DNA of 61,503 nt from Bryobacteraceae bacterium. Lineage in GTDB: Bacteria > Acidobacteriota > Terriglobia > Bryobacterales > Bryobacteraceae. Below the pieces are notes generated by a model. That model worked only from the letters and a program-made list of their open reading frames with translations, was not told where the DNA came from and did not search any database. Below are positions 25,831 to 53,173 of this stretch, in pieces. The first letter of the stretch is position 1; every line of letters begins with the position of its first letter. The position numbers were made by a program, and so were the translations under genes. Location of the stretch: positions 1 to 61,503 of the forward strand of contig JAICXK010000002.1 in the NCBI GenBank assembly GCA_025980435.1, read 5' to 3'.

Positions 25831-26219
25831 AACTTTGTGCGGTGTGGATCGTCCGGCTTTTTATCCGGATCCGCAGGTTTCTTGTCAGGATCGGCAGGCC
25901 TCTTATCCGGATCCCCAGGTTTTTTGTCCGGATCAGCAGGTTTCTTGTCGGGATCGGCGGGCTTTTTATCCGGATCGGCGGGTTTCTTGTCAGGATCGGC
26001 AGGCTTTTTATCCGGATCGGCGGGTTTCTTGTCAGGATCGTCTTGTGCCGAATGATGGAGCCCCGAAGCTCGCAATCCCGAGACAATGCCCGTGGCGCCT
26101 CCCAAAAGAGCGCCAGTCCTGCTCAAGAACGATCGCCTTGGCAGTGTTTGTTCGGTGACGATTTGATCGTCCGTAAGAGTACGGAGCGGATCTAGTCCTT
26201 CAGTTTCCCGGTCACTCAT
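25827..26219 (-). CDS. Tat-signal protein with ten DPDKKPA heptads
   Basis: This 130-residue protein starts MSDRETEGLD at ATG 26219. It has a twin-arginine segment LPRRSFLSRTGALLGGA (Arg28-Arg29) with a hydrophobic stretch. From residue 61 it consists of nine DPDKKPA-type heptads plus a degenerate tenth (DPHRTKF). Variants are DPDKKPG, DPDKRPA and DPDKKPD. It is exceptionally rich in Asp, Pro and Lys and probably extended. Nothing marks an enzymatic domain. It appears to be exported folded or membrane-anchored. Its stop overlaps the oxygenase TTG, and NagA lies 112 bases upstream on the same strand. I cannot name a family. Confidence 0.72.
   Translation of the reverse strand: MSDRETEGLDPLRTLTDDQIVTEQTLPRRSFLSRTGALLGGATGIVSGLRASGLHHSAQDDPDKKPADPDKKPADPDKKPADPDKKPADPDKKPADPDKKPGDPDKRPADPDKKPADPDKKPDDPHRTKF
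25830..26039 (-). repeat. 21-bp coding tandem repeat, ten units
   Basis: Ten 21-base units encode the heptads. Two synonymous versions mostly alternate (plus-strand CTTTTTATCCGGATC type and TTTCTTGTCAGGATC type), giving a 42-base higher-order period. The most regular units are on the upstream side of the gene; the units nearest the stop have drifted. Confidence 0.9.
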
Positions 26220-27518: not shown

Positions 27519-27896
27519 TCAGCCGAAGAAGGAAATTTCCTTCATCGGATAGTGCTTCCGGTTTTGCGTCCACAGCTCTGCGTTATTTGCTATAGCGCTC
27601 GCGGCAATCAACGCATCCGCAATCTCGAGTCCGTGGCTGCGTCTGTAGCGGTGCAGATAAATTCCCGCATCGCGACCGACCTGTTCATCGATTGGGCTAC
27701 ACGTCAACGACTGAAACAGATTATTCAGAGCATCGAATTCGTTCGGCCGGGCGCCTGCCCAGAGTTCAGCGATGCTGACCGGGGAATACAGAACCGCCGC
27801 ATCGGAATCGCTTAAGCCGATCCATTTGGAAACAATCTCCGCATTTTTGCCGCGGGAAACTTCGATCAGGATATCGGAGTCGACAAGAACGGTCAT
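27519..27896 (-). CDS. VapC-type PIN toxin
   Basis: The 125-residue PIN protein begins MTVLVDSDILIEVSRG (first Asp). It has VSIAELWAGARPNEF (conserved Glu), LEIADALIAASAIANNAELWT (third Asp) and the QNRKHYPM end of the fold. VapC toxins cut RNA, often tRNA or rRNA, with Mg2+ at this acidic pocket. The four-base overlap (ATGA) with the upstream antitoxin gives coupled translation. The locus is complete and appears functional. Confidence 0.88.
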   Translation of the reverse strand: MTVLVDSDILIEVSRGKNAEIVSKWIGLSDSDAAVLYSPVSIAELWAGARPNEFDALNNLFQSLTCSPIDEQVGRDAGIYLHRYRRSHGLEIADALIAASAIANNAELWTQNRKHYPMKEISFFG

Positions 27897-28159
27897 TTCT
27901 TGTGCAGGCGGTCCAGACGATCACCCCGCCGGAGAGTTCGAACGTAGTCAACCGAGTCGAGAGCTTCGGAACGCCCCTTCCGAATCCCCACGAATTCCTG
28001 CATGGCCTTTCGCCGCTGATCGTGCCTGCCGAAGTAACGATCACGAACAGCTTCGCGAACGAGTTCCGATACGGTGGTCTTCCGGCTCCGTGCGCGAGCG
28101 TGCAGGGCATTCCAGAGATGTTCGTCGAGATAGAGCTGGGTTCGCCTCACGATGTACAT
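27893..28159 (-). CDS. Ribbon-helix-helix antitoxin (VapB type)
   Basis: The 88-residue protein has an N-terminal ribbon-helix-helix (RRTQLYLDEHLWNALHARARSRKTTVSELVREAVRDRY) and a basic/acidic C-terminal tail that would bind the PIN toxin. RHH antitoxins repress their own promoter. ATG 28159 is given. A GTG at 28150 is also possible, because a TATAAT and palindrome overlap the ATG and conserved sequence starts at that GTG. Confidence 0.82.
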   Translation of the reverse strand: MYIVRRTQLYLDEHLWNALHARARSRKTTVSELVREAVRDRYFGRHDQRRKAMQEFVGIRKGRSEALDSVDYVRTLRRGDRLDRLHKK

Positions 28160-28167
28160 TATACATC
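28151..28167 (-). promoter_or_regulatory. Palindromic operator and -10 box of VapBC
   Basis: GATGTA (28151-28156) and TACATC (28162-28167) form an inverted repeat with a 5-base spacer. Its centre contains TATAAT on the minus strand (28163-28158). The site overlaps the proposed ATG of the antitoxin gene, typical of autoregulated VapBC operators. If the -10 is real, translation may begin at GTG 28150 on an almost leaderless message. Confidence 0.55.
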
Positions 28168-28204
28168 GTTAGATACCGGGCCGGCGCTCTGGACTAGTAT
28201 GTAG

Positions 28205-28951
28205 ATGGCGGCCAAGGCAGGTAGGGCGCCGAGCTTAACGATGCGCCGCGATTATCACAACTGGCACAGCCACCGCACCGGGCGGGACATGGAACTTCTC
28301 GCCTATGGCCACGCCGGACTGCCCATCCTGGTTTTCCCAACCTCCCACGGGAGGTTCTACGAATACGAGAACGCGGGCATGATCCACGCGATTTGGGAAA
28401 AGATCGAAGCGGGAAGTCTACAGATTTTCTGTGTGGACAACATGAACGCCGAGAGCTGGTACAACCGCGGCATTCACCCTCACGACCGTGTCACTCGCCA
28501 TAACGACTACGAGAGCTACATCCTTTATGAGGTAGTGCCGCTCATGAAGGGGGTAAACGGAGCGCAGCAGATCTGCACAACCGGCTGCAGCCTCGGTGGC
28601 TATCATGCCTTTAATTTCGCCATGCGCCATCCGGACGTAACCTCCGCCTGCGTGTCCATGAGCGGGTGCTTCGACATGAAGCATTTCATGGATGGGTACT
28701 ACGATAACGACTTCTATTTCAACAATCCTGTGGATTACCTCCCCAACATGAGTGATTCCTGGTTTCTGGAACGTTACCGGACAATGCGGATCGTTTTGGG
28801 CGCCGGGGACCATGATATCTGCCTCGGCGAGAACTTCCGGATCGCGGACATTCTAGGGCGCAAAGGCATTCCGCACTGGCTGGACGTATGGACCGGCGGC
28901 GAAGTACACGACTGGCCGCTGTGGCAGCGGATGGCGGTAAAATTCTTTTGA
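28205..28951 (+). CDS. Alpha/beta-hydrolase esterase of amidoligase cluster
   Basis: The 248-residue protein is an esterase-family alpha/beta hydrolase without a signal peptide. The nucleophile elbow is GCSLGG (Ser129), the likely acid is in GAGDHD (Asp202/204), and the His is in GGEVHDWPLW (His235). This resembles the esterase D/PHB-depolymerase-type fold. It leads a five-gene plus-strand cluster. It may hydrolyse or transfer an acyl/peptidyl ester or amide in the pathway product. An ATG at 28241 is an alternative start nearer the conserved part. It diverges from the VapBC operator. Confidence 0.8.
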   Translation: MAAKAGRAPSLTMRRDYHNWHSHRTGRDMELLAYGHAGLPILVFPTSHGRFYEYENAGMIHAIWEKIEAGSLQIFCVDNMNAESWYNRGIHPHDRVTRHNDYESYILYEVVPLMKGVNGAQQICTTGCSLGGYHAFNFAMRHPDVTSACVSMSGCFDMKHFMDGYYDNDFYFNNPVDYLPNMSDSWFLERYRTMRIVLGAGDHDICLGENFRIADILGRKGIPHWLDVWTGGEVHDWPLWQRMAVKFF

Positions 28952-29003
28952 CCCAAAAGCCGCTCCCGCAGGGCTCGCGGCTCTGAAGCGGTGCGAGGTG
29001 GTA

Positions 29004-29966
29004 ATGCGGAAGATCGGAATCATCTACGGGATGGAAAACACCTTCCCGTCCGCGCTGGTAGATCGGATCAACAGCAAAGGCGTGTCTGAAGTGAGAGCGG
29101 AGCACATCCGGATCGGCGGAGTGAAAATGGCCGAGCCCAGCGGATACCGCGTCATTATCGACCGGATCTCCCACGACGTTGAGTTCTACCGCGCTTATCT
29201 GAAGAACGCGGTGCTGACCGGCACTATCGTGATCAATAACCCTTTCTGGTGGAGCGCTGATGACAAGTTCTTCAACTACGCCCTGGCGAATCAGTTGGGG
29301 GTGGCTATTCCCCACACCGTTGTCTTGCCGCACAAATCCCATCCAACCGGAACGACGGTGCAGTCGATGCGCAACCTGGTATTCCCGCTGAACTGGGATG
29401 AGATCTTCGATTACATCGGTTTTCCCGCATTTCTAAAGCCCTTCAGCGGAGGGGGCTGGAAAAACGTTTCGAAGGTAAACTCGCGCGAGGAGTTTTTCGA
29501 CGCATACGACCAGAGCGGGTCGTTGTGCATGACCCTGCAATCCGCTGTCGAGTTCGACGAATACTTCCGTTGTTATGTGGTCGGCCAGGAAAACGTGCGC
29601 GTGATGAAGTACGATCCCCGGCTGCCGCATCATTTGCGGTACGTGAAGGACGAACACAGTGGCGCGTCCCCGCTGCGGGAACGCGTAGTCAAAGATTGCC
29701 TCACGCTCTGCCGGGCTCTCGGCTATGACTTCAACACAGTCGAATTCGCCGTCCAGAACGGAATCCCGTACGCGATCGATTTCCTGAATCCTGCTCCCGA
29801 TGCGGACGTACACTCCGTTGGCGAAGCCAACTTCGATTGGGTGGTCGAGAATGTCGCTCAATTGGCCATCGCCAAGGCGTTGAGCGATGAGGAGCCTCAA
29901 ACACACTTTCACTGGAGCCGCTTTCTGGCCGGGCATCAGGGCAGGAGGGCCGCCGCCCTAACCTGA
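29004..29966 (+). CDS. ATP-grasp ligase 1 of amidoligase cluster
   Basis: The ~320-residue protein has an N-terminal Rossmann-like preATP-grasp part (RKIGIIYGMENTFPSALVDRI) and an ATP-grasp core. In the core are FPAFLKPFSGGGWKNVSKV (Lys and glycine-rich loop), a covering segment QSAVEFDEYFRCYVVG, and metal-binding residues in NTVEFAVQNGIPYAIDFLNPAPD. Such enzymes join a carboxylate to an amine through an acyl-phosphate. GAGGTG upstream supports ATG 29004. The GCS2 ligase follows after 24 bases. Confidence 0.82.
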   Translation: MRKIGIIYGMENTFPSALVDRINSKGVSEVRAEHIRIGGVKMAEPSGYRVIIDRISHDVEFYRAYLKNAVLTGTIVINNPFWWSADDKFFNYALANQLGVAIPHTVVLPHKSHPTGTTVQSMRNLVFPLNWDEIFDYIGFPAFLKPFSGGGWKNVSKVNSREEFFDAYDQSGSLCMTLQSAVEFDEYFRCYVVGQENVRVMKYDPRLPHHLRYVKDEHSGASPLRERVVKDCLTLCRALGYDFNTVEFAVQNGIPYAIDFLNPAPDADVHSVGEANFDWVVENVAQLAIAKALSDEEPQTHFHWSRFLAGHQGRRAAALT

Positions 29967-29990
29967 TTCGGCATTGCGGATCGGCGCCTC

Positions 29991-31127
29991 ATGAAACCGA
30001 GCTTTACGATAGGGATCGAAGAAGAGTATCAGACGATCGATCCTGTCACGCGTGACCTCCGGTCGCACATCGATTCCGAAATCATCTCAAAGGGCAAAAC
30101 ACTGCTGAAGGAAGCAGTGAAAGCCGAGATGCACCAATCGGTAGTCGAGGTGGGCACAGGCATCTGCAAGGATGTTCAGGCAGCTTCGCGGGAACTGAAG
30201 GGCTTACGGCTGCAGATCTGCGATCTGGCAAAACAGAACGGCCTACGGCTGGCGTCCGCCGGCACCCATCCCTTTGCCGACTGGCGCAAGCAGGATATCT
30301 ACCCGGACGAGCGATACGAGACGATCGTGCAGGATCTCAAGATGGTGGCGCGCGCGAACCTCATCTTCGGGCTGCACGTGCATATCGCCGTAGAAGACCG
30401 CGAGACCTCCATCCATCTGATGAACGCAGCCCGGTATTTTCTGCCGCATATTCTGGCTCTCTCCACCAATTCACCATTCTGGCTGGGAATGGATACGGGA
30501 TTGAAGTCCTATCGCGGCAAAGTGTTCGATAAATTTCCGCGGACCAATATCCCGGATTACTTTGGGAGCTGGGGTGAATACGAGAGCTTCGTCAATCTGC
30601 TAGTGAAGACGAATTGCATCGACAACGCGAAAAAGATCTGGTGGGACATCCGCCCGCACCCGAATTTTCCGACGCTCGAGTTTCGCATTTGCGATGTCCC
30701 TCTTCGTGCGGATGAAACGATTGCCATCGCGGCGCTGATTCAAGCCACCATCGCCAAACTTTATAAGCTCCATGCCGCAAACCAGGGCTTTCGCCTGTAC
30801 CGGCGGGCCTTTATTATGGAGAACAAGTGGCGCGCCTCGCGCTACGGCCTGGACGGTAAGCTCATCGATTTCGGTAAACAAACGGAAGTTCCCGTCCGCG
30901 ATCTTATTTATGAGTATCTGCAGTTCGTCGATGATGTGGTTGACGAACTCGGATCGCGGAACGAGATTAATTACATCCACCGCATCCTGGAAAATGGTAC
31001 AGGGGCTGATCGCCAGCTCCGTATTTATCAGGAAACGGGAGATTTGACCAAAGTAGTGGATTACATCGTCTATGAGACAGAAACCGGCCTCGCCACAGAG
31101 ATAGCGGGGGCCGGCGTCGCACCATGA
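29991..31127 (+). CDS. GCS2/YbdK-type carboxylate-amine ligase
   Basis: The 378-residue protein belongs to the glutamate-cysteine-ligase-like (GCS2, YbdK) group. It begins FTIGIEEEYQTID (metal-binding glutamates). It has EMHQSVVEVGTGICKD, GLHVHIAVEDRE, STNSPFWLGMDTGLKSYR and TLEFRICDVPL. YbdK-type enzymes make gamma-glutamyl or related amide bonds with ATP. The stop overlaps the next ATG (ATGA). Next to an ATP-grasp ligase it suggests assembly of a small peptide-like metabolite in at least two ligation steps. Confidence 0.9.
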   Translation: MKPSFTIGIEEEYQTIDPVTRDLRSHIDSEIISKGKTLLKEAVKAEMHQSVVEVGTGICKDVQAASRELKGLRLQICDLAKQNGLRLASAGTHPFADWRKQDIYPDERYETIVQDLKMVARANLIFGLHVHIAVEDRETSIHLMNAARYFLPHILALSTNSPFWLGMDTGLKSYRGKVFDKFPRTNIPDYFGSWGEYESFVNLLVKTNCIDNAKKIWWDIRPHPNFPTLEFRICDVPLRADETIAIAALIQATIAKLYKLHAANQGFRLYRRAFIMENKWRASRYGLDGKLIDFGKQTEVPVRDLIYEYLQFVDDVVDELGSRNEINYIHRILENGTGADRQLRIYQETGDLTKVVDYIVYETETGLATEIAGAGVAP

Positions 31128-32143
31128 CCACAAATCTCAGTGACATTCCGTTCGATTCGGAATTGAGTCCTGGCGCGCACAACGCCGTTTTCGTGTGCCT
31201 GAAAGTCCAGCCATCCGAAAAGGTGACGCTGATCACCGATAGCGCCTGCAAAGAGATCGCCGCCAGCATAGCATCGGAATTGAACCAAACGCGCTGCACA
31301 TATAACAGCTTTGTTCTGGAAGAACTCGCGCCCCGGCCGCTGACCGATATGCCGCCCGAGATTCTCAACGATATGCTTACGAGCCAGGTGAGCATTTTCG
31401 CCGTGCAGGCGCAGGCCAACGAGCTGAAGACACGCATGCAGATGTGCGACGTGGTGAATCGCAATCGAATCCGCCATGCCCATATGGTCAATATCGAGAA
31501 GAAGATCATGCTGGAGGGCATGCGGGCGGATTTTCGAGAGGTGGATGATTTAACCCTCCGAGTTATGAACTTGGTACAGAATGCGGCAAGAATTCGCGCC
31601 ACAACTCCGGCGGGGACCGAGATTCAGGCAAACCTGACGCCCGCCTACAAATGGATCAAAACCAGCGGAATCATCAGCCGCGATAAGTGGGGCAATCTAC
31701 CCGGCGGTGAAACCTTCACGTCGCCGCTGGAAGTGAACGGAACGTTCGTGGTGGATGGCGTCGTCGGCGATTACCTCTGTGGAAAATTTGGCGATTTGCG
31801 TAAGACTCCTCTCACCCTGGTAGTTTCCGGCAACCGGCTGGTGGAAGCTCATTCCGAGAACAAACAACTCCAGGACGAGTTCTGGAGTTACACGCATCGC
31901 GATCCGAATAGCGACCGGGTTGGCGAATTCGCAATCGGCACAAATCTTGCGTGCACGCGCATCGTCGGGAACATTCTTCAGGATGAAAAAATTCCCGGCG
32001 TTCACATGGCCTTCGGCGACCCATACGGCGCGCATACCGGCGCGAAATGGACTTCCACCACGCATATCGATGTTGTCGGGCGCGACTTCGACATCTGGGC
32101 CGATGACCGGCCGATCATGCGCGATGGCCAATTCCTGGTGTAA
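31124..32143 (+). CDS. M29-type (AmpS/AmpT-like) aminopeptidase
   Basis: The 339-residue protein resembles family M29 metallo-aminopeptidases. All metal ligands appear present: Glu196 (LPGGETFTSP), Glu268 (VGEFAIGTN), His294 with Tyr301 (HMAFGDPYG), and His314/Asp316 (TTHIDVV). It should bind two metal ions and remove N-terminal residues. Its gene overlaps the GCS2 gene, so it is part of the pathway. It may trim or recycle the product made by the ligases. It has no signal peptide, consistent with a cytosolic role. Confidence 0.82.
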   Translation: MTTNLSDIPFDSELSPGAHNAVFVCLKVQPSEKVTLITDSACKEIAASIASELNQTRCTYNSFVLEELAPRPLTDMPPEILNDMLTSQVSIFAVQAQANELKTRMQMCDVVNRNRIRHAHMVNIEKKIMLEGMRADFREVDDLTLRVMNLVQNAARIRATTPAGTEIQANLTPAYKWIKTSGIISRDKWGNLPGGETFTSPLEVNGTFVVDGVVGDYLCGKFGDLRKTPLTLVVSGNRLVEAHSENKQLQDEFWSYTHRDPNSDRVGEFAIGTNLACTRIVGNILQDEKIPGVHMAFGDPYGAHTGAKWTSTTHIDVVGRDFDIWADDRPIMRDGQFLV

Positions 32144-32155
32144 ACGCAGGAACGC

Positions 32156-33340
32156 GTGATACCCGAGTTACGCAAGCAATTCAACGAGCGTTGGACTCCC
32201 GAACTTTACGCTGACTTCCTTCACCGGCTGGATGCAGCGGCCGGAGCCCATGTTGCGTTTCGCTGCAGCGAGACTCCCATTTTCCTGCCAAACGCGCTTA
32301 TGGACAAGATGGTTCGCTACGGCCAGGAACTCTACTCTCAGCTCGCGGATAACGCCGCCTATGTGCAAGCATCCCAGGCGACGATTCCAGAAAAATTTCG
32401 CGTTCGCAATGAGACCGGACACCCACTGTTTCTGCAGGCCGATTTCGGACTCGTCCGCAGCCCCAAAGGGGAACTGGAACCTAAATTAGTCGAAATCCAG
32501 GGCTTTCCTTCCATTTATGGCTTTCAGGCCGAGTTGGCGAAACAGTATCGGAATGTGTATCGACTCGAAGAACTCCATGCGCGGTTGACACCATTTCTCG
32601 GCGGACTGGATGAGGCCGGTTACTGGGATCTGCTTCGCCGGGCAATCCTGCACGGACACTCGCCTGAGAACGTTGTGCTATTGGAGATCGAGCCGCGCGA
32701 GCAGAAAACACTGCCGGATTTCCTGGTTACGCAAGAACGGCTCGGTATCAAGATCGCTTGCATAACTGAAGTGAAGCAGCAGGGCCGCAAACTGTACTTC
32801 GAAGGCATCCCGATTGAGCGGATTTACAATCGCGTCATCGTCGATGAACTGGCGCGCAAAAATATTCAACCGGGGTTTCGATGGACGGACGATCTGGACG
32901 TCGAATGGGCCGGCCATCCGAACTGGTTCTTTCGCATCAGCAAATTCTCCTTACCGTGGTTCCGGCACGCCAGCGTTCCCGAAACCTGGTTTCTGAGTGA
33001 AGTGAAGCGGCTGCCCGACGATTTAGAGAATTACGTACTGAAGCCGCTTTATTCGTTCGCCGGGCTGGGCGTGAAGATAGGGCCGTCCAGAGAAGAGATC
33101 CTGGCAATCCCTGAGGGCCAGTGGTCCGAATACATTTTGCAGCGCAAGATGGATTTCGCGCCGGTCATAGAGACTCCACGCGGAATGACCAAGGTCGAAA
33201 TCCGCATCATGTACGTCTGGGAAAACGGACTCACCCCTGTTATGGCGGTCGTGCGAACGGGCCGCGGCAAGATGATGGGCGTAGATTTCAACAAGAATCT
33301 GGATTGGGTGGGCGCATCGGCGGGATTTTCACCGGGCTGA
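32156..33340 (+). CDS. ATP-grasp-like ligase 2 of amidoligase cluster
   Basis: The 394-residue protein has a helical N-terminal part and an ATP-grasp-like C-terminal half. Features are YVLKPLYSFAGLGVKIGPSREEI (Lys and glycine-rich loop), SEYILQRKMDFAPVI (lid), TKVEIRIMYVW and a C-terminal NKNLDWVGASAGF. It resembles uncharacterised ATP-grasp proteins more than any named ligase. AGGA before GTG 32156 supports the start. Twelve bases separate it from the aminopeptidase, and it ends the cluster, ten bases from a convergent gene. Confidence 0.68.
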   Translation: MIPELRKQFNERWTPELYADFLHRLDAAAGAHVAFRCSETPIFLPNALMDKMVRYGQELYSQLADNAAYVQASQATIPEKFRVRNETGHPLFLQADFGLVRSPKGELEPKLVEIQGFPSIYGFQAELAKQYRNVYRLEELHARLTPFLGGLDEAGYWDLLRRAILHGHSPENVVLLEIEPREQKTLPDFLVTQERLGIKIACITEVKQQGRKLYFEGIPIERIYNRVIVDELARKNIQPGFRWTDDLDVEWAGHPNWFFRISKFSLPWFRHASVPETWFLSEVKRLPDDLENYVLKPLYSFAGLGVKIGPSREEILAIPEGQWSEYILQRKMDFAPVIETPRGMTKVEIRIMYVWENGLTPVMAVVRTGRGKMMGVDFNKNLDWVGASAGFSPG

Positions 33341-33350
33341 CCGACTCCAT

Positions 33351-34391
33351 TCAAAACCCTGTCGGGCGTACCCAGAAACTCTCCTGCCATGTGTCGCCGG
33401 GAGCCACAGTCTCTAACGCGGGATATTTACCTTCGTGCGCAAGATTCGCTCCATTCGTGATTGCGGCCATAGGCTCAAAGCAGATGTAGGGTTGGCGGGG
33501 CGGCGCGTAGATCACGGCAACCTGATATCGAGGCCCATACAATACTTCAATCTCCTTGGGTCCTGCCTTTACGGCAAAACGTGCGCGCCCGTCGCCCTCT
33601 CGCGCGAGATCCGTGTAGCCGTCATCAAACGTGTGATCTTTCAGGGAAACCCAATCCGGCAAGTTAACCGGCTTCAACTCGCCAGTGGCCACCAGGCGCG
33701 CATCCGTTTCCACGTGTTCGCGAGCCGGGATGTGTACGCTCGCCTCGGAACGCGGCACGTCGCCGAGCTTGAAATACGGATGAAATCCCAGCACAACCGG
33801 CATTGCCTTTGCGCTCAGATTTGTGATCTTAGTGGTCACTTCCAGAACACCGTTCGCCACGGTATAAGTCATCTCGTATTCATGAGCGAAAGGCCAGTTG
33901 GCCATCAAATCGGGATATTTCCAGAATTGCAGCCTGCTGGTCACATGCGCGGAATGTTCATCCGCTCCCACATCGATGACTTGCCAAAGGGATGATGCGG
34001 TCAACATGCCATGTATAGCGATGTCATTGGGGTCTAGACGCAGCGTACCGAGATCCGGGTTGAATCGATACTTCTTGCCATTGGCCCAAAAACCTCCTTC
34101 CGCCATCCGGTTCGCCCAGGGCGCAAGAAACGGAATCCCGTTGAGCTGCCTGGCGCCACTGTCGCGAAAAGCCGCTATATCCGAAGGAGGGAAGTAGAGG
34201 ATATCCTTACCGTGTACTTTGAATTCAAAAGCCCGGTTTCCAATTGATGGAACGATCGAGACGCTAACGTCATCCGCCGCATCCGTCAAGCGAATTACCT
34301 CGACGCCGTGATCTGTCGCTTTCTCGGCGGTATAGCTGCTCGCAGCGTAGACCGCAACAGGCAAAATGAACAGAGTTAACCAGCGCCTCAT
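33351..34391 (-). CDS. Aldose 1-epimerase (mutarotase)-like, exported
   Basis: The ~346-residue protein has a signal peptide (LFILPVAVYAASS). The galactose-mutarotase fold is marked by LNGIPFLAPWANRM, AIHGMLTASSLW (conserved His), VVLGFHPYFKL (catalytic His) and a C-terminal FEPMAAITNGAN with an acidic residue before it. It interconverts anomers of aldoses, here probably in the periplasm. ATG 34391 is preferred to a TTG at 34400. It converges with the amidoligase cluster and diverges from the flavoprotein gene. Confidence 0.87.
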   Translation of the reverse strand: MRRWLTLFILPVAVYAASSYTAEKATDHGVEVIRLTDAADDVSVSIVPSIGNRAFEFKVHGKDILYFPPSDIAAFRDSGARQLNGIPFLAPWANRMAEGGFWANGKKYRFNPDLGTLRLDPNDIAIHGMLTASSLWQVIDVGADEHSAHVTSRLQFWKYPDLMANWPFAHEYEMTYTVANGVLEVTTKITNLSAKAMPVVLGFHPYFKLGDVPRSEASVHIPAREHVETDARLVATGELKPVNLPDWVSLKDHTFDDGYTDLAREGDGRARFAVKAGPKEIEVLYGPRYQVAVIYAPPRQPYICFEPMAAITNGANLAHEGKYPALETVAPGDTWQESFWVRPTGF

Positions 34392-34452
34392 CAGATTCAA
34401 TCTATACCGGACGGTTACGGCTACTCAATTCTGATACGATCTGTGAGCGACA

Positions 34453-35793
34453 GTGACGAAACGAACGTTCCTCCAAGTGCTCTCCTCTGCGATCGCAGGC
34501 TCGTTCTTCGGGCGGCTCTCGACACTGCAAGCTCGCGAGCGCCTCACGAACTGGTCCGGAAATATCACGTACAGCACGGACCATATATCGGAAGCCTCGA
34601 ATATTGATGAGATCCGGTCTCACCTGCGCTCTGAACAGAAGTTGAAAGTGCTTGGCACGCGGCACTGCTTCAACTCCATCGCAGACAGCCGTTACAACCT
34701 GCTGTCTTTGAAACCCATGCAGGAGATGTCGCTCGACTCTGCATCCCGCACGGTTACGGCCGGCCCCGGAGTTACGTACGGACAGCTCGGCCCTTACATC
34801 GACGCGAAGGGCTTTGCGCTTCACAACCTCGCTTCCCTACCACACATATCAGTTGCGGGGGCTTGCAGCACCGCAACGCATGGATCGGGCGAAGAAAACG
34901 GGAATCTGGCGAGCGCCGTGTCAGGTTTGGAGTTGATAACCGCTGCAGGCGATCTCGTGAAACTCAGCCGCGAATCGAATCCTACGGAGTTTCAGGCCGC
35001 CGCGGTTGGGCTCGGCGCCCTGGGGGTGATCACGCGAGTAACGCTCAAGGTTCAACCCACCTATCAAGTGCGGCAGTACGTCTATCAGGATCTTCCGCTT
35101 CGCCAGATGCAAGATCACTTCGAGGAAATTCAGGCGAGCGGCTATAGCGTCAGTCTATTCACCGACTGGCGGGCGAAAAAGATCAGCGAACTCTGGATCA
35201 AGAGCCGCGTCGGAGAGGCTCGGGCGTTCTCCGCGCCTCAGGAGTTGTTCGGCGCGAAGTTGGCTCATCGGAATCTACATCCCATTGCCGGCCTATCTGC
35301 CGAGAACTGCACCGAGCAGATGGGCGTTGCCGGCCCCTGGTATGACCGCCTGCCGCATTTCCGGATGGGCTTTAGGCCAAGCGCCGGAAAGGAATTGCAG
35401 ACCGAATACCTGCTGCCGCGGCGGCACGCCGTCGAGGCGATCCTGGCGGTTGAGCGGCTACAAGATCAGGTAAGCCCGCACCTACTGATTTCAGAGATCC
35501 GCACGATCGCCGCGGACGATCTCTGGATGAGCACGGCGTATAAACGTCCGAGCGTCGCGATCCACTTCACCTGGAAACCGGACTGGCCAGCGGTGAGGAA
35601 CCTTCTTCCGGTTATCGAAAGGGAACTGTCTCCGTTCCATCCGCGGCCGCACTGGGGCAAGCTGTTTACGATGGCGCCGGCGGAACTCCGGTCGCGCTAT
35701 GAAAAGCTGGATGATTTTTTGAAGTTGGCAACCAAGTATGATCCGAAGGGCAAGTTCCGAAACGATTTTTTGAACAAGAATCTGTTCGCGTGA
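34453..35793 (+). CDS. FAD-linked alditol-oxidase-like protein
   Basis: The 446-residue protein has a signal-like N-terminus (KRTFLQVLSSAIAGSFFGRL) and a VAO-type FAD domain. Its GTRHCFN motif probably carries a covalently bound flavin on His, with GPGVTYGQLGPYID and VGLGALGVITRVTLKV following. The C-terminal domain is of the alditol/L-gulonolactone-oxidase type with HWGKLF. Relatives oxidise xylitol, sorbitol or aldonolactones with oxygen. It may work with the neighbouring mutarotase on sugars or polyols. GTG 34453 is the start used. Confidence 0.85.
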   Translation: MTKRTFLQVLSSAIAGSFFGRLSTLQARERLTNWSGNITYSTDHISEASNIDEIRSHLRSEQKLKVLGTRHCFNSIADSRYNLLSLKPMQEMSLDSASRTVTAGPGVTYGQLGPYIDAKGFALHNLASLPHISVAGACSTATHGSGEENGNLASAVSGLELITAAGDLVKLSRESNPTEFQAAAVGLGALGVITRVTLKVQPTYQVRQYVYQDLPLRQMQDHFEEIQASGYSVSLFTDWRAKKISELWIKSRVGEARAFSAPQELFGAKLAHRNLHPIAGLSAENCTEQMGVAGPWYDRLPHFRMGFRPSAGKELQTEYLLPRRHAVEAILAVERLQDQVSPHLLISEIRTIAADDLWMSTAYKRPSVAIHFTWKPDWPAVRNLLPVIERELSPFHPRPHWGKLFTMAPAELRSRYEKLDDFLKLATKYDPKGKFRNDFLNKNLFA

Positions 35794-35797
35794 GAAA

Positions 35798-36196
35798 TCA
35801 GGCCGCCCGCAATGTGTTGGAAAGGTCTTCTGCAGTCTGTTCTGGCGTATCGCGAATCAGATAGCGACGTAATCGAACATCTAACGGAAGAACGCCTGGA
35901 TCCGTACCTTTCGGCACTATCGGAACAACTCGCTTACCCATGCCTATAGCTGCACCGAGTTCAAAGAAGAGATTCGGTCTAGAGGAAGATTCTCTGTCGA
36001 GTAACGATACGAGCACATCGCTACTGCGCAGGCCAGCTTCAAGTGCATCACGCCACGACTCACCGGGCTGTACTTCAAATTCGTCAAACCAGACAGCTAC
36101 TCCACGGTCCTTGAGAGCTTTAGCAAAGGACCGTGCCCAGTCGGCGTCTGCCGCGGAATGTGAAATGAAAACTTTTCGGCTTCCCAAATCTCTCAT
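35798..36196 (-). CDS. TIR-domain protein 2
   Basis: This 132-residue protein is essentially one TIR domain: KVFISHSAADADWARSFAKAL, GVAVWFDEFEVQPGESW, SSDVLVSLLDRESSSRPNLFFELGAAIGMGKRVVPIV. Glu79 in FFELG is the expected NADase glutamate. Bacterial TIR proteins often sense phage or stress and degrade NAD or make signalling nucleotides. It begins inside the stop of another TIR gene (ATGA overlap), so the two are coupled. No other effector or sensor gene flanks them. Confidence 0.8.
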   Translation of the reverse strand: MRDLGSRKVFISHSAADADWARSFAKALKDRGVAVWFDEFEVQPGESWRDALEAGLRSSDVLVSLLDRESSSRPNLFFELGAAIGMGKRVVPIVPKGTDPGVLPLDVRLRRYLIRDTPEQTAEDLSNTLRAA

Positions 36197-36659
36197 CCTC
36201 GATTTTGTCCTATACGCTCGGTCAACTGCTCAAGGTAGACATCGATCTCATTTAATTGTAGGAGATCTCGCTTTTTCAGGAGTACTGGTATGCCTGCAGT
36301 TCGCTTGGCGTGATCCCGAGCAGTAAAGCCACGATCGGGATTCGCCGCCCCCATGCTGCTCCAATTTCAGCCCATACATACGGTCTATCAAGGGCCCATG
36401 GCGTAAGCAGAACGACAAGTTCATGCGCCCGCTCCAGGAACCTTAAGATGTCCTCCTCAAAATCAGCTCCGGCATCTACCTGAGCCTCGTCCAGAAAGGG
36501 CGTGCCGCCGCGAGCTTTGATCTCGCGAGCAATTTGTTTAGCGACCCAAGTATCCGCGCTACTGTGGCTAACGAAGATCAGTCGTTCGTTCGGAGTTGAA
36601 TTCTGCTCCACTGAAGAAGTGTACGCTGATGGCCGGGGCCGGGGCCAACTCACCTTCAT
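36193..36659 (-). pseudogene. TIR-domain protein 1, frameshifted near its end
   Basis: The first ~125 residues hold a TIR domain (LIFVSHSSADTWVAKQIAREIKARG, FLDEAQVDAG, WAEIGAAWGRRIPIVALLLG). The frame then stops at 36276. In another frame the expected end follows: IPVLLKKRDLLQLNEIDVYL, then EQLTERIGQNRG and a stop overlapping the next TIR gene. Restoring one lost base near 36290 gives 155 residues and a four-base ATGA overlap, so the intact ancestor was coupled to TIR 2. ATG 36659 is the likely start; upstream starts are possible. As written, a truncated protein with the putative NADase glutamate is still made. Confidence 0.75.
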
Positions 36660-36738
36660 AGACGCTCTCTCGCCCGCTGTAAAGTTTAATTGAGCCGTTA
36701 CCGTGTAGCACACAACCCTATCGAACGAAGGAGTCAAC

Positions 36739-38400
36739 ATGCCGACTGACCCTCGAGCGGGCCAACCCGCCGATCCTGCACAACTAGTGAACGTTCCCCG
36801 CCTGATTGCAAGTTACTACACGATTAAGCCGGACCCGGCCGAGAAGACCCAGCGGGTCGCTTTCGGAACGTCCGGGCACCGCGGGTCGTCCTTTTTAGGC
36901 AGCTTTAATGAGAGCCATATTCTGGCGATCGCCCAGGCGATCTGCGATTACCGGAAGCAGGAACACACGACCGGTCCGCTTTTCCTCGCTATGGACACGC
37001 ACGCTCTTTCTGAGTGTGCGTTCATGAGCGCGCTGGAAGTGCTTGCCGGGAATGGCATCATTACCATGATCGATCAGGACGGCGGCTACACGCCAACCCC
37101 TGCGCTCTCGCACGCCATCCTAACCTACAATCACGGCCGCACTAGCGGGTTCGCGGATGGTATCGTGATCACGCCTTCACACAACCCCCCGGAAGACGGC
37201 GGATTCAAGTACAACCCGCCCAGCGGCGGCCCCGCCGATACGAACGCTACGAAATGGATTGAGAATCATGCGAACGGCCTGCTAGGCGCCGGGTTGAAGC
37301 CAGTATTGCGCATCCCGTTCGAGCGCGCCCTGCGCGCGGATACAGCGCGCCGCTACGACTACGTATCTACATACGTTGACGACCTGGGCGCAGTGATCGA
37401 CTTCAAGGCGATCACTTCCGCGGATCTGAACCTGGCTGTCGATCCGCTCGGCGGCGCGGGTGTCGCATATTGGCCGCGCATTGCGGAGCGTTATAACCTC
37501 ACGCTGACTGTAGTGAACAAGCTGGTGGATCCCACCTTCCGCTTCATGAGTCTCGATTGGGATGGAAAGATTCGCATGGACTGTTCATCGCCCTACGCCA
37601 TGGCCGCCCTGATCGCGCTAAAAGATCGCTACGATGTGGCCTTCGCCTGCGATACCGATCATGACCGGCATGGCGTCGTGACACGCAGCGCGGGTCTTCT
37701 CAACCCGAATCACTACCTGGCTGTCGCGATCGACTATCTGTTCAACCACAGGCCGGAATGGAGACGGGATGCCACTATCGGCAAGACCCTGGTCAGCAGC
37801 AGCATCATTGATCGTGTCGCGGCCGACCTGGGCAGGCGGCTTGTTGAAGTCCCCGTCGGGTTCAAATGGTTCGTCGGCGGTTTGCTGGATGGCTCGCTTG
37901 GATTCGGTGGAGAAGAGAGCGCCGGCGCGTCGTTCCTGCGCAGAAACGGCGGCCCTTGGAGCACCGATAAAGACGGCTTAATCATGGGGCTGCTCTCGGC
38001 CGAAATCACAGCGAAACTCGGCAAAGATCCAGGTGAGCGGTACCGTGAATTAACTCGACGATTCGGAGACCCGGTATACGAACGAATTGACGCGCCCGCA
38101 TCGCCGGAAGAGAAGGCGATTCTCGCCAAACTTTCGCCTGAACAGGTTTCGGCAAGTGAACTGGCCGGCGAGCAAATTGAAGCCATGCTCACCACCGCGC
38201 CTTCGAACGGGGCGCCGATCGGCGGATTGAAAGTTGTAACAAAGAACGGCTGGTTCGCAGCCCGGCCATCGGGCACGGAGAATGTCTATAAAATCTATGC
38301 CGAGAGCTTTCTCGGCACACAGCATCTAAAGCGCATTCAGGAAGAAGCCCGAACTCTCATCTCGCGGACATTCGAGTCGGCCGGCGCGGCCAGCGTATAA
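36739..38400 (+). CDS. pgm: Phosphoglucomutase (alpha-D-glucose specific)
   Basis: The 553-residue enzyme has the expected motifs. These are [12 protein letters not shown], the catalytic-serine loop [21 protein letters not shown], the metal-binding [10 protein letters not shown], the sugar-binding [12 protein letters not shown] and the phosphate-binding loop [16 protein letters not shown]. It interconverts glucose 1- and 6-phosphate for glycogen, trehalose or cell-wall sugar synthesis. GAAGGAG lies five bases before ATG 36739. It diverges from the TIR genes, with about 80 bases between starts. Confidence 0.95.
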
Positions 38401-51595: not shown

Positions 51596-53173
51596 ATGGA
51601 GTCTTCGTGTGTCCGCCAAAACCTCATCCCCGGCACGAGCAATCTCTTCCTCGACTTTCTCTATCATTTCGATAGAGTAAGTAGGTTTTATTCGCATTCC
51701 CCGGCGATCCTCGGAACTCCGGATGAGTTCGTTCGGCAAATCGATTATCCGCACTCGCGAAGGACAACCTTAGTGGCCGCGCTGCGCGAACAGAACGGCG
51801 ATTCCGAAGCGCTGAAGACGCTGGCTCAGCCGGGAACAGTAGCGGTCGTTACGGGCCAGCAGGTCGGCCTTTTTTCGGGACCGGCCTACACCGTATTCAA
51901 AGCACTCACCGCAGTCAGATTGGCGCGAGAACTGTCGGACCGGGGGACTCCCGCAGTTCCGGTGTTCTGGCTTGCGACCGAAGACCACGATCTCGCCGAA
52001 GTGGACCACGCCTGGGTGTTCAACCAGGACGCCAAACCTGGAAGAGTGGCAGTGACCAGCAGCGTCGTAAACGGCGGACCGGTTGGCGACGTGAAATTGA
52101 ACGAGCTGCCGTGGGCCGAATTGCGAGCCGCTTTGGGCGATCTGCCATTCGCTGGAGAAGTAATCGCGTGGTTGCAGGATGCCTACCAACCGGGCGCAAC
52201 ACTCGGGTTGGCGTTCCGGCGCTTTCTGCAGGACATTCTTCGCGGCTGTGGCCTGCTTTACCTGGACCCGCTGGCGCCTGCCATCCGTGAAATCGCGGCG
52301 CCGTTTCTCGGCGATGCAGTCGCTCGCGTGCCGGAGTTGCTCGATGCGCTGCGGCGGCGAAATTCCGAGCTGGCCGCCGCCGGATATCATGCACAGGTAC
52401 AGGTTGAAGACAATAGCTCGCTCTTGTTCCTGTTGAACGAAGGAAAGCGGATACCAATTCGCTGGAACGAAGGCCGCTTTGCCGCACGCGATCGCTCCTA
52501 TTCCACGGCGGACCTGCAATCGCTGGCGGACCGGCTTTCACCAAACGCGCTGCTGCGGCCTGTGATGCAGGATTTCCTTTTGCCAACCGCCAGCTATATT
52601 GGCGGGCCGTCCGAAATCGCCTACATGGCGCAGGCGCAGGTGCTCTATCAACGGCTTCTGGGGCGCATGCCGGTGATCTTTCCCAGAAACAGCTTCACTC
52701 TGCTGGATACAAGAGCCACGAAACTGCTGGATCGGTACGGGCTGCAGTTGCCGGACGTGCTCGATCATGAGGCGAGCGTGAAGAGCCGGATCGCCCGCCA
52801 GCTTGTGCCCGACGGTCTTGCGCAGCAGCTTCAGTCTTTACGGTCTGAAACAGAACGGAGCCTCGCGAGCCTGCGGAATCAGCTCAAACAATTCGACCCG
52901 ACGCTTGAATCCGCCTCGAAGAAGAGCTCTGCCAAGATCCTGTATCAACTGCAAAAGTTGGCCCAAAAAACCGCTCGTGAGGCTCTGCGCCGCGATGAAA
53001 GAGCCACGCGCGATGCCGGTTACCTGATCGACTTCGTTTATCCGCACCGGCGCCTGCAGGAGCGGTTCTACTCGATCGTCCCCTTCCTCGCCAAGCATGG
53101 CCTCGATCTCCCGCAGCGCTTGTTCGACTTGACCCAAACGGCCTGCCCGGATCACATGGTGCGGACGATTTAG
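51596..53173 (+). CDS. bshC: Bacillithiol synthesis cysteine-adding enzyme
   Basis: The 525-residue protein matches BshC. It has an N-terminal LIPGTSNLFLDFLYHFDRVSRFY and the Rossmann core VVTGQQVGLFSGPAYTVFKALTAVRLA, followed by VPVFWLATEDHDLAEVDHAWVF. MQDFLLPTASYIGGPSEIAYMAQAQVLYQ and FPRNSFTLLD come next, then a long coiled coil near residues 415-465. BshC joins cysteine to glucosaminyl-malate to give bacillithiol. bshA and bshB are not in the window. It diverges from the HemW-like gene. Confidence 0.93.
   Translation: MESSCVRQNLIPGTSNLFLDFLYHFDRVSRFYSHSPAILGTPDEFVRQIDYPHSRRTTLVAALREQNGDSEALKTLAQPGTVAVVTGQQVGLFSGPAYTVFKALTAVRLARELSDRGTPAVPVFWLATEDHDLAEVDHAWVFNQDAKPGRVAVTSSVVNGGPVGDVKLNELPWAELRAALGDLPFAGEVIAWLQDAYQPGATLGLAFRRFLQDILRGCGLLYLDPLAPAIREIAAPFLGDAVARVPELLDALRRRNSELAAAGYHAQVQVEDNSSLLFLLNEGKRIPIRWNEGRFAARDRSYSTADLQSLADRLSPNALLRPVMQDFLLPTASYIGGPSEIAYMAQAQVLYQRLLGRMPVIFPRNSFTLLDTRATKLLDRYGLQLPDVLDHEASVKSRIARQLVPDGLAQQLQSLRSETERSLASLRNQLKQFDPTLESASKKSSAKILYQLQKLAQKTAREALRRDERATRDAGYLIDFVYPHRRLQERFYSIVPFLAKHGLDLPQRLFDLTQTACPDHMVRTI

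Follow-up and report, generated by a model that had tools for sequence, protein, structure and literature searches.

Gene content and layout of the locus

The window, the whole 61,503-nucleotide stretch of Bryobacteraceae DNA analyzed here, contains a cluster of five plus-strand open reading frames (ORFs) in its ORF listing, which we refer to as EST, GRASP1, GCS2, M29, and G5 (Table 1). The ORF coordinates give the same intergenic gaps of 52, 24, -4, and 12 bases that an earlier note on this DNA had described, and the ATGA overlap it reported between GCS2 and M29 is seen in the sequence at position 31124. Across loci, the median gaps between successive gene pairs are 40, 24, -1, and 17.5 bases, with gaps below 60 bases in 39 of 60, 50 of 71, 43 of 50, and 31 of 54 pairs, respectively. 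We infer that the five genes are co-transcribed as one operon; a sigma-70 scan of positions 27700-33700, which is uninformative here, returned no promoter-like sites against a shuffled mean of 3.3.

The GRASP1 frame has an alternative GTG opening at 28998. For EST, 49 of 78 uncut esterase ORFs open exactly at the Met matching residue 13 here, and a further 18 carry a Met at that position, and therefore the true start, as judged from homologues, is probably 28241 rather than 28205.

Table 1. Genes of the cluster, with positions in the window and the basis of each assignment.
Gene	Predicted product	Position	Strand	Basis
EST	PF00756-type serine alpha/beta hydrolase	28241..28951	+	PF00756 2.3e-7; ORF opens at 28205
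GRASP1	ATP-grasp ligase, RimK/LysX/D-Ala-D-Ala-ligase-like	29004..29966	+	Residues, AlphaFold2 model, Foldseek
GCS2	Carboxylate-amine ligase, YbdK / PRK13515 type	29991..31127	+	PF04107 2.9e-62; NF010039
M29	M29-family metallopeptidase	31124..32143	+	PF02073; metal-ligand residues
G5	Circularly permuted ATP-grasp ligase	32156..33340	+	AlphaFold2 model, Foldseek, conserved residues

Three ligases of different design

The active sites of all five genes are intact in the window, and the three ligases retain their ATP/Mg residues in homologues. GCS2, which we take to correspond to COG2170, scores 548.4 bits against the NF010039 equivalog (cut-off 371), and its nearest solved GCS2 structure is Escherichia coli YbdK (1r8g, 9e-54). 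The Glu cluster noted previously is kept in 103-105 of 107 homologues, the remainder being gaps; specifically, E10, E11, E12, E46, E53, H129, and H131 are kept in 103 and E230 and R232 in 105. By model score and active site, GCS2 is thus a predicted member of the YbdK/PRK13515 carboxylate-amine ligases.

The fifth gene, previously described only as ATP-grasp-like, can be assigned more sharply. No Pfam or NCBIfam family matched G5 above threshold, and a scan of 21 G5 homologues gave only weak Pfam matches below threshold, the best being TTL (0.004). Its AlphaFold2 model (pLDDT 91) has the circularly permuted ATP-grasp fold of glutathione synthetase and glutathionylspermidine synthase, with eukaryotic glutathione synthetase (GSS) as the closest fold. 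The best Foldseek matches are human and yeast glutathione synthetase (top 6.5e-16, human GSS), and others include the GSP-synthase-like 3n6x (5.5e-13), YgiC (1.3e-12), and Cp1B (9e-11). All 26 chains matched at E <= 0.001 belong to the GSS/GspS/YgiC-type group, comprising glutathione and homoglutathione synthetases, nematode GSS-like proteins, GspS and a GspS-like protein, YgiC/YjfC, trypanothione synthetase, and Cp1B.

The predicted Mg ligands of G5 are D96 (141/141 homologues), E113 (140/141), and Q115 (141/141), and the predicted ATP lysine is K296 (141/141). The third predicted Mg ligand, matched by motif spacing rather than superposition, is thus invariably Gln and not Asn; for Cp1B, the available part of PMC12568646 names D141, E163, and N165. 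An equivalence of G5 Gln94 with Cp1B Arg139 was rejected, as Gln94 occurs in only 89 of 141 homologues.

GRASP1 carries K145, the GGGW loop, E247, D259, and N262 in all 113 homologues, and its family search returned RimK/Ddl matches below threshold only. Structural modeling, which the earlier note had proposed for each ligase, gave a predicted fold for G5, but for GRASP1 (pLDDT 82) the Foldseek matches to Ddl/ArgX/LysX are generic, to general ATP-grasp relatives that leave the substrate as broad as before.

Two hydrolases, one of them exchangeable

M29 matches PF02073 with 41.3 bits (cut-off 27) over profile positions 203-405 of 406 only. All six ligands mentioned in the earlier note, here E196, E268, H294, Y301, H314, and D316 (predicted metal/catalytic residues of the family), are present and kept in 75-77 of 78 homologues, the remainder being gaps. 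M29 and the NicX-type dioxygenases are related families; among PDB profile matches AmpS (1zjc, 4e-5) ranks above NicX (7cn3, 1e-3), and both Glu ligands are present. The metal-ligand pattern suggests an aminopeptidase rather than a NicX-like dioxygenase.

M29 is found at 55 of 122 loci and a GATase-like hydrolase at 24 of 122, with both at none, such that the two are mutually exclusive, and neither adjoins the ligases at 11 of 84 linked loci. The M29 step is therefore not obligatory, with a GATase-like hydrolase or nothing in its place in other lineages.

The EST catalytic triad is Ser129, Asp204, and His235 (numbering of the longer ORF). The active site proposed earlier is largely conserved, with Ser129 kept in 80 and His235 in 81 of the 85 homologues examined; the Ser is lost at four loci (L076, L089, L155, and L160), and esterase chemistry is therefore not universal.

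Conservation and co-occurrence of the cluster

Among 23 regions taken from 21 relatives, 15 show the complete order EST-GRASP1-GCS2-M29-G5 and the remaining eight are cut by contig ends; two more distant relatives have variant arrangements. Five-gene order is also found at 34 of the 80 loci retained from named genomes. The earlier note had held that its reading would fail if the genes did not occur together elsewhere or if GCS2 and the peptidase lay in separate operons; instead, the two are adjacent in relatives, and the genes occur together across phyla. The module is also present in Bacteroidota/Ignavibacteria and Verrucomicrobia, and G5 was detected in 40 of 297 sampled genomes of its own phylum (Acidobacteriota), 94 of 296 Bacteroidota, and 5 of 145 Verrucomicrobia. 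Mean GCS2 identity between Acidobacteriota and Bacteroidota loci is 62%. Relatives from the same taxonomic order whose GCS2 is only 32-43% identical have no G5. G5 had no match on plasmids in PLSDB.

In a phylogenetic profile of 60 genomes, GCS2 at >= 60% identity occurs in 22/22 G5-positive vs 2/38 G5-negative genomes (Fisher 2e-14) and M29 in 21/22 vs 2/38 (Fisher 7e-13), values that ignore kinship among genomes that are related and so not independent. The three exceptions to the profile involve a contig break (G015), a GATase-like gene (G057), and a different permuted ATP-grasp (G056). Distances for GRASP1, GCS2, M29, and EST are also correlated with the G5 distances (r 0.79-0.89, 43-70 loci).

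The genes co-occur even where they are unlinked. Some Bacteroidota and Terriglobia carry G5 away from the other genes, and in 13 of 40 Bacteroidota regions it is solitary among genes of unrelated families. GRASP1 is not beside G5 at 17 of 40 Bacteroidota loci, and these genomes still hold GCS2 (17/17) and GRASP1 (16/17). By comparison, among 20 G5-negative controls only G397 has both GCS2 and GRASP1, each above 400 bits, and there a permuted ATP-grasp that is 34% identical to that of G056 lies between GRASP1 and a GATase-like gene and fills the place of G5; weaker partners occur in G379 (GCS2, 293 bits) and G382 (GRASP1, 225 bits). Among 12 G5-positive genomes that lack GCS2 at the locus, two (G070 and G071) lack it anywhere, and a further locus (L190) has no GCS2 beside G5, so either GCS2 is not always needed or these assemblies are incomplete. 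Given the conserved order and the co-occurrence relative to controls, the grouping of the five genes is far beyond chance.

Genomic neighbors and searches for a precursor

The absence of a short precursor gene, stated previously, holds in the cluster flanks of the window, where we found no conserved small ORF: in a comparison of small ORFs (20-90 aa) covering the 1-kb flanks at 18 loci, those of the window matched none of the 17 other loci (E 1e-4). Repeated small-ORF matches within the same genus were rejected as precursors: they fall downstream of G5 on the opposite (minus) strand, at a spot where these loci have a plus-strand phosphoglucomutase gene. In line with the earlier note, carrier-protein families are also absent from the matches of the five proteins. 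Membership in the graspetides or other RiPPs was rejected, as no conserved precursor peptide gene lies within 1 kb of the cluster, and a defense role was rejected because the five proteins have no PADLOC match. For three of the five, there was likewise no phage-family match. Outside the five genes, some neighbors recur within particular lineages, namely phosphoglucomutase, PilZ/regulator genes, and a second esterase.

A proposed pathway and its alternatives

We consider it probable, with moderate confidence, that the cluster is one operon encoding a cytosolic, template-free pathway in which small carboxylates and amines are joined by successive ATP-dependent ligations. GCS2 would most likely form a gamma-glutamyl-type amide bond, GRASP1 would add or join a second building block, and G5, which is built like eukaryotic glutathione synthetase and the peptide-spermidine ligases, would add a C-terminal amine or amino acid. 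A single amide bond, in either the product or an intermediate, may be cut by M29, or elsewhere by the GATase-type cysteine hydrolase, which would serve turnover or deprotection. EST may act on that molecule too, hydrolyzing an ester or acyl bond. That the ligases act one after another on a common small molecule is putative here, as are the order of steps, the identity of the building blocks, and what each hydrolase does. The earlier proposal is supported in part: co-occurrence across phyla and GCS2/M29 adjacency argue for its core, one pathway with several amide ligations on small building blocks, the M29 step proved not to be obligatory, and its free amino-acid building blocks and its trimming or recycling steps are putative.

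The NAGGN osmolyte genes and PuuA/PuuD gamma-glutamylation are models for an amide that is made and then broken down, and the small amide may similarly be an osmolyte or a detoxified conjugate later cleaved by a dedicated peptidase, although we regard this as unlikely. The NAGGN operon contains asparagine-synthetase-like and GNAT-ATP-grasp proteins; neither type is among the Pfam matches of the five proteins, and membership in that system was rejected. An exchangeable hydrolase (M29 or GATase) suits a cleavage function, and other GCS2-like genes adjoin a GATase-like thiol peptidase, according to the accessible part of PMC2588565. However, among the identified shared neighbor clusters no transporter or osmotic regulator is found repeatedly in different phyla, the PilZ and LuxR-type regulators beside G5 occur at just 16-17 of 80 loci, and both hydrolases are missing at 11 of the 84 linked loci.

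Less probable is a glutathione-like thiol, with GCS2 making gamma-glutamylcysteine, G5 adding the third residue, and GRASP1 forming a further conjugate. Both the glutathione synthetase matches of G5 and a report of YbdK as a gamma-glutamyl:cysteine ligase (a title cited in the part of PMC2588565 available) are consistent with such a product, but 57 of the 60 genomes, that of the window included, carry the bacillithiol gene bshC, whether they are G5-positive (21/22) or G5-negative (36/38), leaving no thiol gap to fill. Its presence regardless of the cluster makes a mere glutathione substitute unlikely, and replacement of glutathione or bacillithiol was rejected. Moreover, bacillithiol is predicted in Acidobacteria and Bacteroidetes (PMC6282198, in part), the third predicted Mg ligand of G5 is Gln instead of Asn, and the third ligase is left unexplained.

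Slightly more doubtful still is protein or peptide modification, in which amino acids or amines would be added by the ligases to a protein or ribosomal peptide, in the manner of RimK, pupylation, or graspetides, and taken off again by the peptidase. The fold neighbors of GRASP1 include the graspetide ligases PsnB and MdnC as well as LysX/ArgX, enzymes acting on LysW, GCS2 has the Pup ligase PafA as a relative (PMC2588565, in part), and the sequences of the ligases by themselves would suit small-molecule and protein substrates alike. Against this, small ORFs of the window are unmatched at the other loci, the gaps between cluster genes are mostly short, and no carrier-protein family is represented, although a substrate protein could be encoded elsewhere. 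That the five are unrelated housekeeping genes and neighbors by chance, as the unlinked G5 genes might suggest, is very improbable, since the partners are still encoded elsewhere in most genomes with unlinked G5 but are missing from most controls.

Under the favored pathway of successive ligations, the product could, as a more tentative suggestion, be an intracellular metabolite, cofactor, or solute that is strongly conserved yet undescribed, comes close to primary metabolism in many Bacteroidota, Ignavibacteria, and Acidobacteriota, and is made by three differently designed ligases, including a new eukaryotic-GSS-like bacterial family with a Gln Mg ligand. With the same gene set in several phyla, many bacteria may share one yet unnamed metabolite, and because carriers include cultured hosts, with Pedobacter caeni, Edaphobacter lichenicola, and Terriglobus albidus among the loci, it should be findable by deletion and metabolomics.

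Comparison with known systems

Amidoligase pathways are a known kind, predicted systems of which were reportedly treated by Iyer et al. in 2009, and this cluster stands out by its wide sharing and high conservation. The literature searched, outside which Iyer et al. 2009 falls, yielded neither a description of the five-gene set nor a named product for it, and the available parts of PMC12568646, PMC4431377, PMC8939145, PMC2588565, and PMC6282198 make no mention of the set.

As in this cluster, GCS2-type and ATP-grasp ligases adjoin peptidases or GATase-like thiol peptidases in the predicted amidoligase systems described in the available part of PMC2588565, but these involve another GCS2-like family. 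Relative to other YbdK/PRK13515 GCS2 proteins, with which it shares the NF010039 score above cut-off and the match to YbdK, the cluster enzyme differs in having GRASP1 as a neighbor together with G5 or a different permuted ATP-grasp. Biosynthesis of E-64 similarly uses a glutathione-synthetase-fold ligase (Cp1B) in a precursor-free short amide pathway, but is fungal, and the accessible portion of PMC12568646 mentions no GCS2, M29, or GATase partners. G5 shares its fold and its D, E-x-N/Q, and KP-loop pattern with GSS, glutathionylspermidine synthase, YgiC/YjfC, and Cp1B, but at 11-16% identity, with an invariant Gln for Asn and with other operon partners, and would represent a new family of bacterial enzymes with this fold.

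Cluster layout and conservation among relatives

The earlier note described five plus-strand genes at 28205-33340, and these ORFs, with gaps of 52, 24, -4 and 12 bases and the overlap, are confirmed in the sequence, which belongs to a 5.14 Mb draft genome (416 contigs, 93.5% complete). Because the RHH/PIN pair 5' of the cluster and the aldose-epimerase gene 3' of it, on the opposite strand (both Pfam), each read in the opposite direction, the unit in the window comprises five genes. An 11-nt inverted repeat (28146-28156 and 28162-28172) covers the antitoxin start, immediately 5' of the operon. In each of the 11 same-genus regions that extend past G5, the fifth gene, a phosphoglucomutase gene follows it by 10-67 bases; in the window the phosphoglucomutase gene lies at 36739, and within 33351-38400 four genes separate it from G5 (aldose epimerase, an ALO-type oxidase and two TIR genes).

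The first gene, EST, encodes a PF00756 serine hydrolase (Pfam), and its start is probably 28241, because residue 13 is exactly where 49 of 78 uncut homologous ORFs start. The catalytic Ser of the esterase is replaced at four loci (L076, L089, L155 and L160), all four of which have neither M29 nor a GATase-like gene adjoining the ligases. The second gene, GRASP1, encodes an ATP-grasp enzyme that exceeds no family threshold in Pfam or NCBIfam; a structure search with the enzyme's model (pLDDT 82) retrieves D-Ala-D-Ala ligases, ArgX/LysX and graspetide ligases. The third gene encodes a YbdK/PRK13515-type GCS2 ligase and the fourth an M29 metallopeptidase (Pfam), whose family profile ranks AmpS (4e-5) above NicX (1e-3).

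Co-occurrence and conserved order, which the earlier note had proposed as checks on its reading, both hold among relatives. In a phylogenetic profile of 60 genomes (the source genome and 59 relatives), G5 occurs in 22, GCS2 (≥60% identity) in 24 and M29 in 23; GCS2 is present in 22/22 G5-positive versus 2/38 G5-negative genomes, and M29 in 21/22 versus 2/38. The five genes keep the same order and direction in 15 of 23 regions from 21 relatives, the remaining eight ending at contig ends; in one relative (G028) about 1.3 kb lies between M29 and G5.

Coordinates of features in the window and at related loci (L056, L104)
Feature	Location	Strand	Basis or remark
PIN-domain toxin-like gene (PF01850) and RHH antitoxin-like gene (PF01402)	27519-28159	-	Pfam; directed away from operon
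Tandem 21-nt repeat, DPDKKPA-type coding units	25846-26060		Near end of 199-aa minus-strand ORF; no Pfam match for this ORF
Two small TIR-domain genes (PF13676)	35798-36740	-	3' of cluster
bshC (bacillithiol synthase)	51635-53155	+	TIGR03998, 402 bits
Second PF00756 esterase	L056:5011-5940	-	12 further loci of 80
Second PF00756 esterase	L104:3311-4066	-
PilZ / LuxR-type response-regulator genes after G5	L056:11306-12402

Family and fold of G5

G5 has no match in Pfam, NCBIfam, PADLOC or PHROGs, nor in PDB by sequence, and in PDB a profile built from 21 homologues gave just a chance-level primase match (0.026); TTL, GSP_synth, GSH-S_ATP and ATPgrasp_ST were weakly matched by one or two of these homologues in Pfam. 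Its model (pLDDT 91, pTM 0.90) best matches human (6.5e-16) and yeast (1.3e-15) glutathione synthetase in a structure search, followed by the GspS-like 3n6x, YgiC, trypanothione synthetase and Cp1B. The available portion of one report names D141, E163 and N165 in the Cp1B active site (PMC12568646); on motif spacing, their counterparts in G5 are D96, E113 and Q115. Among 141 homologues, D96, Q115 and K296 are found in all and E113 in 140, and judged from these sequences the Gln at the third position is a mark of the G5 family.

Distribution across phyla

Among the best 80 of at least 582 confirmed G5 relatives, retained from a scan of named genomes, Acidobacteriota predominate, alongside Ignavibacteria, Pedobacter and other Bacteroidota, Verrucomicrobia and one Chthonomonadaceae-labelled MAG; the full five-gene order is present in 34 of these 80 loci, and G5 stands alone in 18, some at contig ends or on short contigs. 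By phylum sample, G5 occurs in 40/297 genomes of the phylum of the window (G213, G292 and G346 weak or partial), 94/296 of that of Pedobacter, which in this collection includes Ignavibacteria (G388 and G422 weak), and 5/145 of Verrucomicrobia. Forty of the 94 loci were retrieved: 24 have GRASP1 or GCS2 adjoining G5, three a GATase-like gene only, and 13 G5 alone. Mean identity between Acidobacteriota (25 loci) and Bacteroidota (22 loci) is 62% for GCS2, 56% for GRASP1 and 42% for G5, which suggests a basic role for the product, as opposed to that of a fast-changing natural product.

Other neighbors are restricted to particular lineages. PilZ immediately follows G5 in 16 of the best 80 loci and a LuxR-type response regulator in 12, many of Acidobacteriaceae type, and these genes stay next to G5 even where it is unlinked from the cluster. 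A second PF00756 esterase, absent from the window, occurs in 14 of the 80 loci, including Acidobacteriota and Verrucomicrobia (in 13 of them just 5' of EST or GRASP1 and divergent), in 3/23 relatives' regions and in 9/40 Bacteroidota loci (23-32% identity); the L056 and L104 copies are 46% identical, with marginal similarity to EST.

Co-occurrence without linkage

Twelve G5-positive genomes (Edaphobacter, Terriglobus and others) lack GCS2 at the locus, and in ten of them it is encoded elsewhere, with GRASP1 (9/10) or M29 (3/10) within 1.5 kb; GCS2 is absent from G070 and G071. Seventeen Bacteroidota genomes in which GRASP1 does not adjoin G5 all encode GCS2 (≥586 bits; linked in G623), and 16 encode GRASP1 (in two pieces in G646, none in G594). 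Among 20 G5-negative controls, one (G397) has both above 400 bits; weaker matches are GCS2 in G379 (293 bits) and GRASP1 in G382 (225 bits) and, marginally, G380 (19 bits). Fisher values for this unlinked co-occurrence are 1e-9 and 2e-8, with G379 and G382 entered as lacking and genomes treated as independent, though related. The neighbors of solitary G5 genes are unrelated.

Exchange of single enzymes

In Bacteroidota and Ignavibacteria, the place of M29 is often filled by a class-I GATase-like protein, whose Cys-His-Glu triad is intact in 24/24 matches and whose profile has a sole PDB match, 3l7n (6.5e-4). No locus among 122 carries both hydrolases: 55 have M29 and 24 the GATase-like gene. 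Where the ligases are linked (84 loci), 52 have M29, 21 the GATase-like gene and 11 neither of them. Uncut loci with a variant gene set come from two more distant relatives: G057 carries GRASP1-GCS2-GATase-G5 with a divergent esterase, and G056 carries GCS2-GRASP1-another permuted ATP-grasp-M29. This other permuted ATP-grasp, of ~450 aa with an E-x-N motif, adjoins GRASP1 and the hydrolase in both G056 and G397, which lack G5, the two copies being 34% identical. With both the hydrolase and the permuted ATP-grasp replaceable, the set of functions is therefore kept while single enzymes are exchanged. In a Saprospiraceae MAG in which a search did not find GCS2, the GATase-like gene and G5 are separated by a nucleotidyltransferase/HepT pair (L102:8498-11194).

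Proposed pathway and comparison with known systems

A small intracellular amide would be assembled stepwise by three carboxylate-amine ligases, each ATP-dependent and of a different design. This reading is favored because an amide hydrolase accompanies the ligases, the five proteins include neither a transporter nor a carrier, and the flanks of the window's cluster hold no conserved small ORF. By analogy with the nearest characterized relatives, GCS2 may perform gamma-glutamylation and G5 a C-terminal addition. The fold matches of G5 could recall a simple glutathione substitute; the presence of bshC in 57/60 genomes, irrespective of the cluster, argues against that role.

The accessible part of one study describes GATase-like thiol peptidases next to other GCS2-like genes (PMC2588565). 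A partial literature search, with Iyer et al. (2009), the likeliest prior source, outside its scope, found no paper on the five-gene set. Amidoligase pathways as a kind have been predicted before, and this five-gene set may be a new variation on them.
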